Shown piece after piece: positions 3,535 to 64,000 of a stretch of DNA of 64,000 nucleotides. Under the pieces are notes generated by a model, which was not told the DNA's origin, did not search any database, and saw only the letters and a list, made by a program, of their open reading frames with translations. Source of the stretch: Pseudomonas sp. MYb327 (lineage in GTDB: Bacteria > Pseudomonadota > Gammaproteobacteria > Pseudomonadales > Pseudomonadaceae); the NCBI RefSeq assembly GCF_040438925.1, contig NZ_CP159258.1, forward strand, positions 5,913,001 through 5,977,000, given 5' to 3'. The position numbers and the translations under genes were made by a program. Numbering within the stretch: position 1 is the stretch's first letter; every line of letters begins with the position of its first letter.

Positions 3535-5184
3535 ATGAACCTGCATCAGTTCGCCGAAACCCACGAAGTCACTAACCAGCCACCGTCCCTGGACGGTGCC
3601 AACCTGTATCGCATCGACTTGCCTTTGCAGGAGTGGTCGCGGCGTTTCGGGGCTGGTTGGGCCGAATCGCGGATCGACGCTTACGGCGCGCTGGCTGGCG
3701 GGCCGTTGATGGCAGCGGGATTTCTGGCTAATCAGAACAAACCGGTGTTCAGCAGCCACGATCGTTATGGTCACCGCATCGACCTGGTGGAGTTCCATCC
3801 GGCCTATCACGAGCTGATGCGCACGGCGATCGAGCACGGCTTGACCTCGTTGCCCTGGGCGCATCCGCAGGACGGCGCCCACGTCGCTCGCGCCTCCATG
3901 ACCTACTTGCACAGCCAGGCCGAAGCCGGCAGTGGCTGTCCGTTGACCATGACCTTCGCCAGTGTTCCGGCGCTGCGTCTGCAACCGGACCTTGCGGAAA
4001 AATGGTTGCCTAAAATCCTTGCCACGGAATACGACCCGCGCAACGTCGGCATAGCCCACAAGGCCGGTGTCACCATCGGCATGGCGATGACCGAAAAGCA
4101 GGGCGGCACCGATGTGCGGGCCAACACCACCAAGGCCTATCCGGTGGGTGCCAGCGGTCCGGGCCAGGCTTACGAACTGGTGGGGCACAAGTGGTTCTGT
4201 TCGGCGCCGATGTGCGATGCATTCCTGACCCTGGCCCAGACGGACAAAGGACTGACCTGTTTCCTGCTGCCGCGCCATCGCCCGGACGACACGCGCAATC
4301 AGTTCTACATCCAGCGCTTGAAGAACAAACTCGGCAACTGCTCCAACGCGTCCAGCGAAGTGGAGTTTCGCGGCGCGCTGGCGTGGATGGTCGGCGAGGA
4401 GGGGCGCGGCGTGCCGACCATCATCGAGATGGTGGCGATGACCCGTTTCGATTGCATGGTCGGCTCCAGCTCACTCATGCGCCAGGCGCTGACCCAAGCG
4501 AGTCATCACTGCGCTCATCGCGCGGTGGGCGGTAGATTGCTCAGCGAACAACCCTTGATGCAAAACGTGCTGGCCGACCTCGCGCTGGAAAGCGAAGCCG
4601 CCCTGGCCTTGAGCTTGCGCATGGGCCGGGCGCTAGATCACCTGGATGATTCCCAGGAAGCCAAATTCGCCCGACTGGTGACGGCGGTGGGCAAGTATTG
4701 GATCTGCAAACGTGCGCCGGGGATGATCAACGAAGCGGCGGAATGCATAGGCGGCGCGGGGTACGTCGAAGACAGCATCCTGCCGCGCCTCTACCGCGAA
4801 GCGCCAGTGAACTCGACGTGGGAAGGTTCCGGCAACGTGCAATGCCTCGACGTGCTGCGCGCGCTGTCGAAAGAGCCGGGCGTGCTGGATGCATTGTTTA
4901 GCGAATTGGGCGATGGCCATGGCGACAAGCGTCTGGCCGCACACATCAGTCAATTGCACGCGGCTTTTAAAGACACCAGCGACATTCAATATCGGGCGCG
5001 GCAGTTGACTGAAGACATTGCACTGGGCCTTCAGGCCAAGCTGTTGCTTGAGGCGGGGAATTCGGCGGTCAGTGATGCTTTTATCGCCAGTCGTCTAAGT
5101 GGTGGTGGCCGGGTGTACGGCGCATTGCCGCGGGGGCTGGATGTTGAAGCGATAGTCGCCCGCGCCAATCCACAGAACTACTGA
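3535..5184 (+). CDS. AidB-like acyl-CoA dehydrogenase family flavoprotein
   Basis: FAD enzyme of 549 residues, close in length to E. coli AidB (541). AidB-type features are the middle-domain GMAMTEKQGGTDVR, the RLKNKLGNCSNASSEVEF stretch, TRFDC and the C-terminal APVNSTWEGSGN segment that carries the expected active-site glutamate. E. coli AidB is linked to the adaptive response to alkylation and binds DNA; whether this homologue does the same is inference. A good Shine-Dalgarno (AAAGGAG) precedes the ATG. It stands alone between the sensor kinase and amn. A metabolic isovaleryl-CoA-type dehydrogenase is less likely given the AidB-specific motifs. Confidence 0.85.
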   Translation: MNLHQFAETHEVTNQPPSLDGANLYRIDLPLQEWSRRFGAGWAESRIDAYGALAGGPLMAAGFLANQNKPVFSSHDRYGHRIDLVEFHPAYHELMRTAIEHGLTSLPWAHPQDGAHVARASMTYLHSQAEAGSGCPLTMTFASVPALRLQPDLAEKWLPKILATEYDPRNVGIAHKAGVTIGMAMTEKQGGTDVRANTTKAYPVGASGPGQAYELVGHKWFCSAPMCDAFLTLAQTDKGLTCFLLPRHRPDDTRNQFYIQRLKNKLGNCSNASSEVEFRGALAWMVGEEGRGVPTIIEMVAMTRFDCMVGSSSLMRQALTQASHHCAHRAVGGRLLSEQPLMQNVLADLALESEAALALSLRMGRALDHLDDSQEAKFARLVTAVGKYWICKRAPGMINEAAECIGGAGYVEDSILPRLYREAPVNSTWEGSGNVQCLDVLRALSKEPGVLDALFSELGDGHGDKRLAAHISQLHAAFKDTSDIQYRARQLTEDIALGLQAKLLLEAGNSAVSDAFIASRLSGGGRVYGALPRGLDVEAIVARANPQNY

Positions 5185-10746: not shown

Positions 10747-11166
10747 TTACGCGGCGGGTTGCAGGCCGAACATGGCCAGTTGCTGAGTGCTGCCCTTGTG
10801 CTGGATCAGGCGCGGATCGTCCAGCGGCAGGCTGCGGCCCAGCTCACGTTGCAGAATAGTCTGCAACTTGAGGTTATCGACCTTGCCGTCGGCACCGATG
10901 GCTTCCTTGAGTTTTTCCGGGTCGACCTGGGCCGTCTTGCCCGGTTCAAAGTAAATCGCGCCAGTAGCGAAGTCCACGGCGAACGCGATCAGGCCGGGGA
11001 TGATGTAAAACAACAGGCCCACGGCATCGAGCACGGCGATGGCCGGGTCGATCTTGCCGTCGATCTGGCCGCGACGATCCGGATAGAAAATCGAACCGCA
11101 CGCGGTGACCTGGGTCAGCAGGGTCGCGACCAAAACACCGCCGATCAGGCGAAAGGGAACACGCAT
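10747..11166 (-). CDS. Putative lipoprotein
   Basis: Protein of 139 residues with an N-terminal membrane/signal segment ending LTQVTACGS, a lipobox-like site with Cys at about residue 20. A short conserved region with IFYPDRRGQIDGKIDP is followed by a hydrophobic stretch VLDAVGLLFYIIPGLIAFAVDF and a polar C-terminal tail. Start ATG at 11164-11166 has AGGAG 9 nt upstream; the longer frame that begins upstream lacks this. Homologues in Pseudomonas are often mislabelled as polynucleotide nucleotidyltransferase; nothing here supports that. Function unknown. Confidence 0.75.
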   Translation of the reverse strand: MRVPFRLIGGVLVATLLTQVTACGSIFYPDRRGQIDGKIDPAIAVLDAVGLLFYIIPGLIAFAVDFATGAIYFEPGKTAQVDPEKLKEAIGADGKVDNLKLQTILQRELGRSLPLDDPRLIQHKGSTQQLAMFGLQPAA

Positions 11167-11276
11167 ATGAAATCTCCTGAGTCTTCTGGAAAACGAAACG
11201 TCGTCGGTACGAATTAAGACCCCGACTAACGCCCGGCAGTTCGCCGTTATACTCGCCCCTCTGTTTGGGAGCCAGC

Positions 11277-60058: not shown

Positions 60059-60128
60059 CTGTAGGAGCCCGGCTTGCCGGCGATAGCGATCTTCAGGTCG
60101 CTATGGCCGGCAAGCCGGGCTCCTACAG
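60059..60128. repeat. REPIN, TGTAGGAGC family, inside the cstA operon
   Basis: CTGTAGGAGCCCGGCTTGCC and inverted GGCAAGCCGGGCTCCTACAG, with inner TAGCGA/TCGCTA also pairing; a near-perfect long hairpin 27 bp before yjiA. Confidence 0.92.
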
Positions 60129-60155
60129 TTTTTTCAGCGCATGGGAGATCTTCTT

Positions 60156-61127
60156 TTGTCAGCTCCAATCCCCGTCACGATCCTCAGCGGCTTTCTCGGC
60201 GCCGGCAAAACTACCTTGCTGCGCCACCTGCTCAAAGCCGAGCACGGCCTGAAAATCGCCGTGATCGAAAACGAATTCAGCGACGCCGGCATCGACACCC
60301 AACTGTTGGGCGACGAGCCGGTACAAGTGATGACGCTGTCCAACGGTTGCGTCTGCTGCACCATCCACACCGACCTGACCAAGGCCTTGTATCTGCTGCT
60401 CGAACGCCTGGACTGCGGCGATATCGCGTTCGACCGTCTGGTAATCGAATGCACCGGTTTGGCCGATCCGGCACCGGTGACGCAGACCTTTTTCATCGAT
60501 GAGGAATTGCGCGAGCGCTACATCCTCGACGGCATCATCACGCTGGTGGATGCGGCGCACGCCGACACACACCTGAGCCAGACCATCGCCCAGGCGCAGA
60601 TCGGTTTTGCCGACCGCTTGCTGGTGAGTAAACGCGACCTGGTAGACGAGCCGAGCTTCAACGCATTGAGCGAACGACTGACCCGTATCAATCGTCGCGC
60701 ACCGATCCGTGTGGTCGACCACGGCAATATCGACTTGGCCGAACTGCTCGATGTGCGCGGCTTCAATCTCAATGCTGACCTCGGTGGGGGCATGAGTCTG
60801 CGCCCGGTGAGCCAAGCCCCGTCCATCGACCGCATTTCCAGCCTGGTGCTGCGTACCGACAAACCGCTCGATATCGACAAGCTCAGTGAGTTCATGAACG
60901 AGCTGCTGGAAGATCATGGCAAGCAATTGCTGCGCTACAAAGGCGTTTTGAACATCCTTGGCGAACCGCGCCGCATGGTGTTTCAGGGCGTGCTGAAGTT
61001 GTACGGTTTCGACTGGGACACCGAATGGGCCGAGGACGAAGTGCGCGAGAGCGTGATTGTGTTCATCGCCGATGATTTGCCGGAAGAGAAAATTCGCGAG
61101 GGATTTGCGCGAGTCGCGGTGGTGTGA
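60156..61127 (+). CDS. yjiA: CobW/YjiA family GTPase (metal chaperone-like)
   Basis: P-loop GTPase of 323 residues. Walker A GFLGAGKTTLL (about 12-22), the metal-binding SNGCVCCTIHTDL (GCxCC motif), switch ECTGLADPAP, base-recognition VSKRDLVD and a C-terminal CobW_C domain (about 225-320). COG0523 proteins act in Zn/Co/Ni handling. I chose TTG 60156 (MSAPIPVTILSGF) because GGGAGA lies 8 nt upstream and the product fits the family; ATG 60141 would place five extra residues across that ribosome-binding site. Confidence 0.88.
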   Translation: MSAPIPVTILSGFLGAGKTTLLRHLLKAEHGLKIAVIENEFSDAGIDTQLLGDEPVQVMTLSNGCVCCTIHTDLTKALYLLLERLDCGDIAFDRLVIECTGLADPAPVTQTFFIDEELRERYILDGIITLVDAAHADTHLSQTIAQAQIGFADRLLVSKRDLVDEPSFNALSERLTRINRRAPIRVVDHGNIDLAELLDVRGFNLNADLGGGMSLRPVSQAPSIDRISSLVLRTDKPLDIDKLSEFMNELLEDHGKQLLRYKGVLNILGEPRRMVFQGVLKLYGFDWDTEWAEDEVRESVIVFIADDLPEEKIREGFARVAVV

Positions 61128-61137
61128 AGCTGTGAGT

Positions 61138-61162
61138 GCCCATCGTGTGATGGGCATTTTTT
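61138..61162 (+). terminator. Rho-independent terminator after yjiA
   Basis: Stem TGCCCATC/GATGGGCA with a GTGT loop, followed by a run of T. It separates the core cstA block from the accessory lanthipeptide segment. Confidence 0.88.
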
Positions 61163-61467
61163 TGAGAATCAAAAAAGTTTATGCGAGAAAGTAAACGCTG
61201 ATTAGTTTGAATTAGTGTGCGGTAATATTTGGTCAAGTTTACAAAAGCATCTGTCGATCGATTTTGTTGAGCTGTCAGCGTGATTGATGGCTTTGGTTGT
61301 AACTGTCTGTGTGACTTGTAAGTGCATTGTTGGAAGTTGTTTCTGGTTGTAGTGCTTAAGAATATGTGGGTTTACATTTGGTTTGAATTGATAAGCGGTG
61401 GCATAGAGTTCTGAGTGATAAATTAAATGGGCGCCAACAAGGCGACTAATATTATCAGGAGAAACTT
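61163..61467. other. AT-rich region upstream of the lanthipeptide precursor
   Basis: Stretch of 305 bp, markedly richer in A/T than the genes to its left. It should carry the precursor promoter, but no convincing -35/-10 pair was found. A small hairpin CGCC-AACAA-GGCG (61432-61444) lies in the likely leader before the AGGAG site. I see no other gene here except a doubtful 21-codon frame at 61287-61352. Confidence 0.5.
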
Positions 61468-61620
61468 ATGCAAGAGCAAATCATGGATCTGTCCGGTGAA
61501 CTGGATGCCGAGTTCGAAGCTTACGTAAGTGCTGGCGATGCCAATGTCGGCGGGGAAGGTATGTGCACCAATATGTCGTGCGGCACCTTGCAGTGCACCG
61601 CTCTGGGCTGCGGCTGCTAA
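61468..61620 (+). CDS. Class II lanthipeptide precursor peptide
   Basis: Precursor of 50 residues. Acidic leader (1-31: MQEQIMDLSGELDAEFEAYV, then SAGDANVGGEG) with a Gly-Gly at 28-29 that could be the processing site. The core is MCTNMSCGTLQCTALGCGC (32-50), with five Cys (33, 38, 43, 48, 50) and four Ser/Thr (34, 37, 40, 44). An excellent AGGAG lies 7 nt before the ATG. The LanM synthetase gene follows 61 bp downstream. The C-terminal C-T-x3-C-x-C resembles the mersacidin group's C-T-x4-C-x-C, but the Glu of that group's lipid II motif is absent. Activity and ring pattern are unknown. Confidence 0.85.
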   Translation: MQEQIMDLSGELDAEFEAYVSAGDANVGGEGMCTNMSCGTLQCTALGCGC

Positions 61621-61629
61621 TTTCCCACT

Positions 61630-61661
61630 AAAGCAAGGTGGGTCGTGAGCCACCTTGCTTT
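61630..61661 (+). promoter_or_regulatory. Intercistronic hairpin between the precursor and lanM
   Basis: Perfect 12-bp stem AAAGCAAGGTGG/CCACCTTGCTTT with an 8-nt loop, 9 nt after the precursor stop. No T run follows, so it is a partial terminator or an mRNA-stabilising hairpin rather than a full stop. Confidence 0.8.
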
Positions 61662-61681
61662 ACCACGAGTGGTGAGCAATT

Positions 61682-64000
61682 TTGACTGATGTTTTGAATT
61701 TCACTGAACGCAATACATGGGGCGCACAATCAGCGCTGGATCAAGAGATGCTGCGCAAGACTCTCGATCTTTTACACAAGAATGATAAAGCCACGCTGCG
61801 TCATTTCGGTGTCGATCGGGAAACATTACTTAATGATTCCCGTCTTCTTGCGTCCAGCGATAATAATGTGTGTTCGCCGGCAGTTAAAAGTCGTGAAGAA
61901 AAAATCAGAACCCTATCTTTTTTGCCGGTTGAGTGCGAGGTGGGTGTTGAAGAAAGTTTCGGCTGGTTTTGCGCTTCCTGGTATGATTATTTAAAATATT
62001 CTTTCGAAAAAGACGCTAAATACACTTCTGTTTGTGAGTTGATTGATGTAATAACATTTTTGCCAAGTGCTCGCGCGTATATAACGGCCAGAGTGAAGTA
62101 TCTATCGGAAAAGTCGCTGGTTCATCAATTGAACAGTCGGATATCCGAAGGTGCCGAGGTGGATCTGGAAACGTTTGACCAGGCGCTGGCAGGCGAGGCG
62201 CTGGTTGAATTCCTGGGGGCATACCCGGTGCTGGCGTGTTTGCTGGTGGAGATGATTGAAGACACGGTGGCTTACCTGTACAGGGTCATCGAGCATTTCG
62301 ACGAAGACTTCAATCGACTCGAGTCGGCTTTTGCATTGGTTGCAAAGCGCATCGACTCGATAGTCCTCGGCCAGGGAGACGCCCATGCCAATGGTGAGAC
62401 GGTCTGCTTCATTCAGGTCAGTGGTCAGTCGCTGGTGTACAAGCCAAGGAGTAACCGCGAAGCGATTTTCTACAGTGCATTGCTGCAGCACTTGCATGAC
62501 AGAACCGGAGATCCCGGTTTTGCCATTTACGCGCCTGTCATGGTGTCTCGGGAAAACCGTTGCTGGATTGAGAAAATAGAAAATCTGGCCTGTGAGTCGG
62601 AAGCGGACCTGGCTCTTTTTTTCCAGCGCTTGGGCGCCCAGGTCGCGGTAATTCATGCCTTGAACGGCATCGACTTTCACTACGAAAACCTGATCGCCTG
62701 CGGCAGTAGCCCGGTGATGATCGATCTGGAGTGCCTGTTCACTTCGGCCATGATCGATTTGCGTACCAATCTGCCTCACAGTCGCGCGCTGTTCAAAACC
62801 ATCAAGCTCAATGGGCAGTCAGTATTTTCCAGCGGCTTCGTGCCGTATTCACCGGACTCAGAGAATGACTACAGTGGTCTGAGCCGACAGCAACAATTCG
62901 CGGGTAAAAGAAAACAGCTGGTCCGCGAGCAGGGCTATTACCGCTTGAAAAATGTCGACTTCGACAGTCGTCCGGTCATTCGGCATCTGCCCGTTTTCAA
63001 TGGCGAAACGCACTCGGTCACTGACTACAAAGACGCCTTTCTCCGCGGTTTCGAGCGCGGTTACGATGAATTAATCAATCACCGGGGCGCCGTACTCGAC
63101 TTGCTCGCGCAGCATGCCGGGACATTGAAGACCCGCGTTCTGATCAAAAATACCCAGCGTTACGCGGACTTCATCGCGATGATGCTCCATCCTCGCTTTA
63201 CCCGGTGCGCTGTTCAGCATGAATTGCTGTTGGCGACCCTGTGGTCGGATCTGAGCGAAACACTCAACGATTACAACATTCCCGGGCATGAAATCGTTGA
63301 TCTGAAGAAGGCCAACATTCCTTGCTTCACCATGCCTTTGCTTTCCAGCCAATTGATTAACGCCCATGGTCAGGCGGTTGCTCCTTTGGCCATCGAGCGT
63401 CCGTTAGACAGTTGCCGCCGGAAGTTGGAAAACCTGTCTCCCGCAGACAAAGCGTCGCAAATGCATATATTGCAAATGTGCCTGTTCCCCGTCGCCAATG
63501 AAGCGTTGCCACTCAACCGTGCGCATCATTTGAGAGCGGTGCAGGAGCTCAGCCGGGCGCAGTACCTCGAAGGCGCTATCAGCATTTCCGTGGTCATAGA
63601 GCGGCTGCGCATCGACGGCGAGGAAGGTGATGTCGCCTGGACATTCATGGACACGCACCCACGAACCCAGCGTCATTTCATTACGCCCATGGGCAGCGGT
63701 TTGTATAACGGGATGGGCGGCCTGGCGATTTTTTACCTGAGCCTGTTCCGAACCAGCCGTACACCCCGTTATTTGAACGAGGCCGAGCGTATCTTGTGCG
63801 CGATGACCAAGTCCCAAGGCCATTTTCCAAGCGAATCGAGCGTCAGTGCCTATTTCGGCCTGACCTCCTATCTCTACGTTCTGGTCAATTACCAGCTAAT
63901 CTCTGGGCGCCTGACTTACCAGGCGATCATTGAGGAACAGTTGCTCAAACTGGAGGATTTTCCACGGGACGGCGACGAGTTCGATTTCATTCACGGTTGG
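61682..64000 (+). CDS. lanM: Class II lanthipeptide synthetase LanM (3' end outside window)
   Basis: First 773 residues of a bifunctional LanM, which phosphorylates and dehydrates Ser/Thr of the precursor and then forms thioether rings. The DUF4135 dehydratase domain is recognised by GDAHANGETVCF (232-243), SLVYKPRSNR and DFHYEN (331-336) followed by VMIDLECLF. The LanC-like cyclase begins near residue 671 with GSGLYNGMGGLAIFYL; its zinc ligands lie beyond the window. The frame is open from an in-frame TGA at 61673; the first start is TTG 61682 with GGTGAG 7 nt upstream. Roughly the first 130 codons are AT-rich, the rest closer to host composition. Full-length LanM proteins are about 900-1100 residues. 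Confidence 0.9.
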   Translation, partial: MTDVLNFTERNTWGAQSALDQEMLRKTLDLLHKNDKATLRHFGVDRETLLNDSRLLASSDNNVCSPAVKSREEKIRTLSFLPVECEVGVEESFGWFCASWYDYLKYSFEKDAKYTSVCELIDVITFLPSARAYITARVKYLSEKSLVHQLNSRISEGAEVDLETFDQALAGEALVEFLGAYPVLACLLVEMIEDTVAYLYRVIEHFDEDFNRLESAFALVAKRIDSIVLGQGDAHANGETVCFIQVSGQSLVYKPRSNREAIFYSALLQHLHDRTGDPGFAIYAPVMVSRENRCWIEKIENLACESEADLALFFQRLGAQVAVIHALNGIDFHYENLIACGSSPVMIDLECLFTSAMIDLRTNLPHSRALFKTIKLNGQSVFSSGFVPYSPDSENDYSGLSRQQQFAGKRKQLVREQGYYRLKNVDFDSRPVIRHLPVFNGETHSVTDYKDAFLRGFERGYDELINHRGAVLDLLAQHAGTLKTRVLIKNTQRYADFIAMMLHPRFTRCAVQHELLLATLWSDLSETLNDYNIPGHEIVDLKKANIPCFTMPLLSSQLINAHGQAVAPLAIERPLDSCRRKLENLSPADKASQMHILQMCLFPVANEALPLNRAHHLRAVQELSRAQYLEGAISISVVIERLRIDGEEGDVAWTFMDTHPRTQRHFITPMGSGLYNGMGGLAIFYLSLFRTSRTPRYLNEAERILCAMTKSQGHFPSESSVSAYFGLTSYLYVLVNYQLISGRLTYQAIIEEQLLKLEDFPRDGDEFDFIHGW

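Follow-up and report, generated by a model that had tools for sequence, protein, structure and literature searches.

The familiar class II lanthipeptides are antibiotics that Gram-positive bacteria secrete. A LanM system without linked transport or immunity genes in Pseudomonas raises the question of how its product would leave the cell, or whether it would act inside it. Such a system lies at the right end of the stretch studied here, a window of 64,000 nucleotides from the chromosome of Pseudomonas sp. MYb327 (contig NZ_CP159258.1, positions 5,913,001 to 5,977,000 of the forward strand). A gene for a small precursor peptide is followed by lanM, and the pair can be predicted from its genes, with good confidence, to be a minimal, functional class II lanthipeptide operon. 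Its chemistry is of a known class; it is distinct in having none of the linked transport and immunity genes that usually mark lantibiotic clusters. The interest of the system lies in this missing half more than in the LanM enzyme. The parts of the operon are the following.

61457..61462, plus strand: ribosome-binding site of the precursor gene, AGGAGA, read in the sequence.
61468..61620, plus strand: precursor peptide gene, 50 amino acids; leader with a conserved LSGE..EFEAY, and predicted core rings T34-C38, T40-C43 and T44-C48.
61630..61661, plus strand: hairpin between precursor and lanM, covarying in relatives and without a T run.
61682..64000, plus strand: lanM, class II lanthipeptide synthetase, codons 1-773 of 1025; the gene extends to position 4759 of the extended locus L002 (genome position 5977759).

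The right edge of the window falls within this two-gene operon. Because the genome is a single contig of 6,148,998 bases, the remainder of lanM can be read beyond it. An earlier note, made from the window alone, had reported a LanM with intact dehydratase motifs, and named a frameshift in lanM or a missing cyclase zinc site downstream as findings that would overturn its reading. Neither is found. The complete gene is an uninterrupted frame of 1025 codons with no internal stop, and the zinc ligands C886, C938 and H939 are present beyond the window end. The dehydratase domain lies inside the window, and its motifs were all located (GDAH at 62375, YKPR at 62438, DFHYEN at 62672 and DLE at 62723). 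LanM is a single bifunctional protein, as expected of class II, with a DUF4135 dehydratase (255 bits) and a LanC-like cyclase (LANC_like, 170 bits); it scores 552 bits against TIGR03897, for which the cut-off is 304. The closest of the solved relatives listed in the PDB is LicM2 (255.8 bits), and CylM scores 144 bits.

The catalytic residues of CylM, which we take to be D252, H254, K274, D347, H349, N352, D364, R506 and T512, align with D233, H235, K254, D331, H333, N336, D348, R485 and T491 of this LanM. The first eight are identical in all 22 intact clade members compared; at position 491, 11 of these have T and the other 11 have S. The cyclase residue H829 and the zinc ligands C886, C938 and H939 are likewise kept in 22 of 22. 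Both the dehydratase residues and the Cys, Cys-His zinc site that define a class II synthetase are present. The start of the gene is altered in this genome: relatives such as L033 read ATG-TTG, and the window genome reads ATT-TTG. Because ATT replaces the ATG of relatives, TTG at 61682 is the first usual start of lanM.

The precursor, MQEQIMDLSGELDAEFEAYVSAGDANVGGEGMCTNMSCGTLQCTALGCGC, has the adjacent Ser/Thr and Cys region behind a leader that class II precursors require, and its 50-residue frame and ribosome-binding site are as the earlier note described them. Further precursors were also looked for, and the genome search finds this one only. An alignment search with the precursor family lists 75 proteins, the weakest at E = 6.7e-14; all those with an organism name are Pseudomonas, and most are labelled hypothetical. 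These relatives, together with ratios of nonsynonymous to synonymous substitution (dN/dS) of 0.06-0.17 in six pairs from four loci of the window's type (type A, below), show that the precursor is not a chance open reading frame. The window precursor matches no family in Pfam or NCBIfam. In an alignment of 23 precursors, A1 (which omits L042, L047-beta, L049-beta, L050, L053-L056 and L060), no variation is seen at S9, G10, C38, C43, T44 or C48, and hardly any at T34 and T40. The 23 members give scattered Pfam matches only, all with E of at least 0.048.

A ring pattern, [T/S]x2-3-C-x-[T/S]x2-3-C-[T/S]xxx-C, is kept in 85 of 88 distinct precursors. One of the three exceptions has a departing C-terminus and two lack a ring cysteine. 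In the simplest reading, the pattern predicts three adjacent, non-overlapping (methyl)lanthionine rings, and the pairing in the window precursor would be T34-C38, T40-C43 and T44-C48. S37, C33 and C50 vary across the family. Four water losses (T34, S37, T40, T44) are possible for this peptide; three would be the family rule. Lipid II binders of the mersacidin and actagardine type carry a C-T-x-T-x-E-C ring motif. By eye, this motif occurs in none of the 88 precursors, and the window core, CTNMSCGTLQC, does not belong to that type.

The precursor and its lanM are coupled across the genus. Among 398 sampled Pseudomonas genomes, 27 have some match to TIGR03897, 20 of them over the cut-off. The same 19 genomes hold both the precursor family and the lanM clade, and the precursor never occurs without its lanM (the precursor search scored at most 17 first-look candidates per genome, and misses are possible). 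This distribution bears out the earlier suggestion that the system is accessory. A protein search with LanM gave 585 matches at E <= 1e-30. Within the best 120 of these, ranks 1-90 have at least 37% identity and, where named, are Pseudomonas (one is labelled compost metagenome). From rank 91, outside the Pseudomonas clade, identity among the matches listed is 25-28%, and the organisms named include Bacillus, Paenibacillus and Archangium. No plasmid or phage link appears: 120 plasmid records give a match, all below 60% identity and the ten top-ranked at 25-27%, and one phage record matches at 23%.

Two main arrangements occur. Type A (10 loci, the window included) has one precursor in the gap between yjiA and glyA, some loci with GntR- and dctA-like genes there. 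In type B (12 loci), one lanM is accompanied by two precursors, alpha and beta, mostly of 47 and 52 amino acids; the operon lies between ettA and a GreA/B-like gene, at the opposite end of the block that holds type A. L057 is a third, divergent clade member at a different site. In all 22 type A and B loci, the precursor or precursors and lanM stand alone between the flanking genes (open reading frames of at least 60 amino acids; flanks named by eye, GntR- and dctA-like genes among them in some type A loci). Duplicates were counted once (L051 = L038, L052 = L037), and the beta precursor of L049, missed by the pattern search, was read from the locus sequence. The LanM tree separates a type A clade (10 rows, support 100/100) from a type B clade (11 rows, 100/99), and a tree of the GGDEF protein next to the operon divides likewise (10 and 12 rows, each with support 100/100). 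Local exchange inside type A appears likely because the two trees disagree there, for example over L042.

Some loci depart from these forms. L046 has two beta precursors. L045, in genome G314, has a further precursor-like open reading frame 3' of lanM (11040-11177) that is unlike alpha and beta; G314 also holds, elsewhere, a second LanM-like gene with one stop (L030). In genome G389, a type B lanM lies in three open frames (L060:8422-11499), its alpha precursor lacks the second ring cysteine, and an intact beta is adjacent. L058 and L059 (genomes G006 and G386) are Pseudomonas LanM-like loci outside the clade, with ABC (ATP-binding cassette) transporter genes directly after lanM according to Pfam. 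At the aligned zinc positions, L058 reads SWSHG and ICHG, and L059 reads SWAHG and VATG; either their cyclase zinc sites differ or they are misaligned.

Simple pairwise Nei-Gojobori counts indicate that the precursor and lanM are under purifying selection. In five close pairs the dN/dS of lanM is 0.12-0.19, and that of the GGDEF gene on its flank is 0.05-0.08; lanM is thus less constrained than the GGDEF gene, yet far from neutral. The alpha precursor has a mean dN of 0.110 and dS of 0.81 (19 of 21 pairs finite), and the beta precursor 0.100 and 1.08 (27 of 28 pairs finite). L057 was excluded from these counts and from the hairpin comparison.

The gap of 61 bases between precursor and lanM contains a hairpin, which folds in the window with z = -4.24. 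Each of the 22 type A and B loci allows a hairpin 3' of its last precursor, and in 21 of them the minimum-energy fold contains it; in L054 that fold favours other pairs, and the same stem can still be drawn. Across the ten type A sequences, 96% of cells are paired and 6 of 10 pairs have changed on both sides. None of 500 shuffles reached this level, and slid registers were at most 56% paired, in a test biased in the structure's favour because the structure was derived from the same ten sequences. Because it has no T run, the hairpin is more likely to serve stability or partial read-through than to terminate transcription fully. The sole Rfam match, to a minus-strand microRNA family, scores 26.8 bits where the gathering threshold is 76 (E = 0.0007); it was taken as chance, and the hairpin was not assigned to a named RNA.

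A simple course of events can be proposed from these parts. A single transcript would carry the 50-residue precursor and LanM, and the hairpin between the genes would probably keep the precursor in excess. LanM would bind the conserved leader and then dehydrate T34, T40 and T44, and perhaps S37. C38, C43 and C48 would be added to the dehydrated residues to give three small methyllanthionine rings, with C33 and C50 left outside the conserved ring pattern. Since no dedicated exporter, leader protease or immunity gene accompanies the operon, the product may depend on housekeeping proteins for trimming and release, or else be retained and active inside the cell.

The earlier note had expected transporter, protease and immunity genes to follow beyond 64 kb. 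This expectation did not hold. Reading the complete genome after lanM and scanning the neighbours with Pfam and NCBIfam revealed no such genes; a hypothetical protein of 193 amino acids on the opposite strand comes next, followed by glyA (named by eye). A complete cluster with LanT, a protease and LanFEG just past the window, the usual layout for class II, is therefore almost certainly wrong: these are the next genes, and a C39-peptidase model finds only two matches in the whole genome, FapD and an LssB-type type I secretion permease. FapD exceeds its NCBIfam cut-off and sits in an amyloid operon with FapC and FapE (both over the cut-off) and part of FapF, and the permease adjoins a TolC-family protein, both over the cut-off. 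The hypothetical protein (L002:4947-5528) has no Pfam, NCBIfam or PADLOC match. It was rejected as an immunity or processing protein because its kind, clusters c28 and c7, flanks glyA in both lanM arrangements, and c7-type matches occur in the lanM-free loci L062, L064, L065 and L070. Proteins of these two clusters are hypothetical, of about 170-210 amino acids, and lie 3' of glyA with or without lanM nearby, c7 taking the same position as c28. Likewise rejected as operon parts were the GntR- and dctA-like genes that adjoin type A operons in some loci; they occur in lanM-free genomes too.

The lack of linked genes extends to the whole clade. No C39 match was found near lanM in the 19 clade genomes (in fragmented assemblies, the search took in other contigs and 12-20 kb around lanM), and no linked LanT, the C39 ABC transporter, was found. 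Two of the 19, G058 and G210, have a stronger C39 transporter-like match elsewhere in the genome. A tblastn search of 23 clade loci with five ABC or C39 proteins and ettA returned ettA only, plus matches overlapping the ettA ends in L033, L035, L038 and L043. Its sensitivity is limited, in that the ABC gene of L059 was found by LssB and ettA, and those of L058 only by themselves. No ABC relative that could represent LanFEG lies beside lanM, and no LanI was seen, although a LanI-like gene shorter than 60 amino acids or elsewhere in the genome would be outside the reach of the search. At the leader-core junction, a G[GAS] step is present in 14 of 17 type A precursors, 5 of 34 alpha, 11 of 30 beta and none of four untyped ones (85 ring-pattern precursors). 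Family-wide C39 cleavage is unsupported because the step is rare in alpha, beta and untyped precursors.

Several observations weigh against a functional operon. Class II peptides usually need a C39 transporter for leader removal, and since FapD and the LssB-type permease are the only C39 matches, maturation has no obvious agent. The altered start of lanM, with ATT for ATG and TTG next, may reduce expression compared with relatives. A sigma-70 consensus scan of 61100-61800 lists no promoter upstream. In G389, one of the 19 genomes, lanM is broken into pieces and alpha lacks a ring cysteine; the trait can therefore be lost, and the system is, on its sequence, decaying in that lineage. The product, its transcript and its activity are predictions from the genes. 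The minimal gene set, the altered start codon and the broken copy could together suggest that a full lantibiotic cluster has decayed to a remnant, its genes for transport and immunity gone. This is very unlikely, given that 22 loci in two well supported clades have this minimal form, that dN/dS remains at 0.12-0.19 in lanM and at 0.06-0.17 in the precursor of type A, and that a covarying hairpin has been retained.

If the operon is functional, as we prefer, the fate of its product can be seen in two ways. It may be a secreted antimicrobial lantibiotic, exported and freed of its leader in trans by a general exporter and protease, with immunity conferred by the Gram-negative outer membrane or by differences in the target. 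This is a real prospect, somewhat short of an even chance. The small core rich in Cys and Thr, the G[GAS] junction of most type A precursors, LicM2 as closest solved relative, the pairing of two different precursors with one lanM in type B, as in two-peptide lantibiotics, and the C39 transporter-like matches of G058 and G210 all point this way. However, the G[GAS] step is rare in alpha and beta and absent from the untyped precursors, and the type A and B operons have no adjacent ABC or C39 gene, whereas L058 and L059 outside the clade do have ABC genes. Alternatively, the product may be an intracellular lanthipeptide, perhaps still bearing its leader and never exported, that serves, for example, as a regulator, a metal or thiol ligand or a phage inhibitor. 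We hold this tentatively, as the somewhat less likely of the two. It would account for the want of an exporter in 22 type A and B loci, the want of C39 near lanM in 19 genomes, the unconserved cleavage step in alpha and beta, and the strong purifying selection on the precursor. The G[GAS] step retained by type A speaks against it. A phage role finds no encouragement in PADLOC, whose anti-phage models gave 0 matches for the six proteins tried, or in the surroundings, which by eye look metabolic and not like a defence island. A bolder proposal, more doubtful again, is that of a lineage-specific lanthipeptide family, maintained by selection in part of the genus, whose peptide, constrained by three thioether rings, works inside its Gram-negative producer as an internal regulator, ligand or phage inhibitor. 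With no dedicated export and no need of immunity, such a product would not be an antibiotic.

Comparison with known systems places the minimal operon more precisely. LicM2 modifies the beta peptide of lichenicidin, and cytolysin is a two-peptide lantibiotic with a single LanM, CylM. In both systems, too, a bifunctional LanM stands next to a precursor that has a leader and a Cys/Thr core, and the residues of its dehydratase and zinc cyclase are those found here. Unlike them, the Pseudomonas operon has no adjacent LanT/C39 or ABC gene and no recognised protease or immunity gene. Type B resembles the two-peptide lantibiotics in having two precursors before one lanM; type A differs, with its one precursor, and export and immunity genes were not found. 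The family is a convenient two-gene LanM system from a Gram-negative host, and its 88 distinct natural precursors could serve to derive leader and ring rules.

The lanthiphages cited in PMC12715929 are class I LanBC lanthipeptides with an anti-phage function, described there solely from Actinomycetota and in defence islands. The likeness is a lanthipeptide role other than classical antibiosis; the enzyme class is different, and the Pseudomonas operon shows no pointer to defence genes. The same paper, a large co-localisation survey, covers 1,412 class II clusters, classed by core peptide, transport machinery and LanM. Because of this classing, a survey filter requiring transport machinery would probably drop the Pseudomonas family. 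PMC8719888 describes, for P. fluorescens strains, a lanthipeptide type in which a LanM (TIGR03897) is encoded next to a putative precursor; this type is probably the present family or one related to it. PMC8704066 counts class II lantipeptide clusters: five in the reference genomes of P. fluorescens, and among 37 Pseudomonas species two genomes that have them. In PMC4528175, which compares two species, lantipeptides are predicted for P. mediterranea only. The accessible parts of these three surveys give no precursor family and no product, and do not mention a ring pattern, the distribution of the family or its lack of transport genes. The earlier note had called LanM clusters uncommon in Pseudomonas: the accessory nature of this one holds, and the system is less isolated than supposed, since the surveys already list class II lanthipeptides in the genus. 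A literature search that left subscription journals and bioRxiv preprints mostly uncovered turned up neither a product nor a structure for the Pseudomonas clade, nor a family name.

The borders of the site and the elements upstream of the operon are as follows.

60141..61127, plus strand: yjiA-like GTPase gene, left border of the site and context outside the operon; present in all 14 lanM-free relatives fetched.
61134..61163, plus strand: intrinsic terminator of the cstA-yjiX-yjiA block, a hairpin with seven T, z -3.95.
61371..61383, plus strand: conserved upstream element TTTACATTTGGTT, in which CATT and GTT do not vary across the 10 loci of type A; a possible activator site.
61416..61424, plus strand: extended -10-like box TGATAAATT (TGnTAnnnT), the pattern kept in 10 type A rows; function putative.

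The left-border gene is presumably yjiA, as the earlier note labelled it. The operon does lie after the cstA-yjiX-yjiA block and its terminator, as had been proposed for an insertion. The consensus scan mentioned above lists no terminator in 61100-61800 either, and thus missed the one at 61134-61163. The two upstream elements are candidates for an extended -10 box and an activator site. Type B loci share a longer upstream block and TGCTACTGT, invariant in 12 rows.

The 14 lanM-free relatives were chosen, as a non-random draw, from 36 genus genomes with the nearest GGDEF protein. They keep the order yjiA-glyA-GGDEF-ettA-DUF4105 without an operon there, and the operon is therefore accessory; four of them lack gdhA in this stretch, and one lacks the GreA/B-like gene. 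The spacing between yjiA and glyA is about 113-204 bases in 5 of the 14. Neighbourhoods were compared from mechanical longest-frame calls of at least 60 amino acids, with gene names mostly assigned by reading the sequence, and Pfam scans of neighbours covered L002 and L057-L059. As to signs of mobile elements, the 19.5 kb of the locus contain no transfer RNA gene, and no integrase or transposase was recognised by eye.

Two further features of the region stand apart from the operon. A stretch of low G+C content in the ettA-gdhA gap (L002:13445-16752, genome about 5986445-5989752) encodes a TIM-barrel isomerase-like protein, AzlC, AzlD and an Rv3722c-type aspartate aminotransferase; it has no relatives in the other compared loci and was set aside as a separate accessory insert. 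Within the window, the yjiX-yjiA gap holds a long inverted repeat at 60061-60128 (TGTAGGAGCCCGGCTTGCCGGC...), which by eye resembles a repetitive extragenic palindromic (REP)-type element of Pseudomonas.

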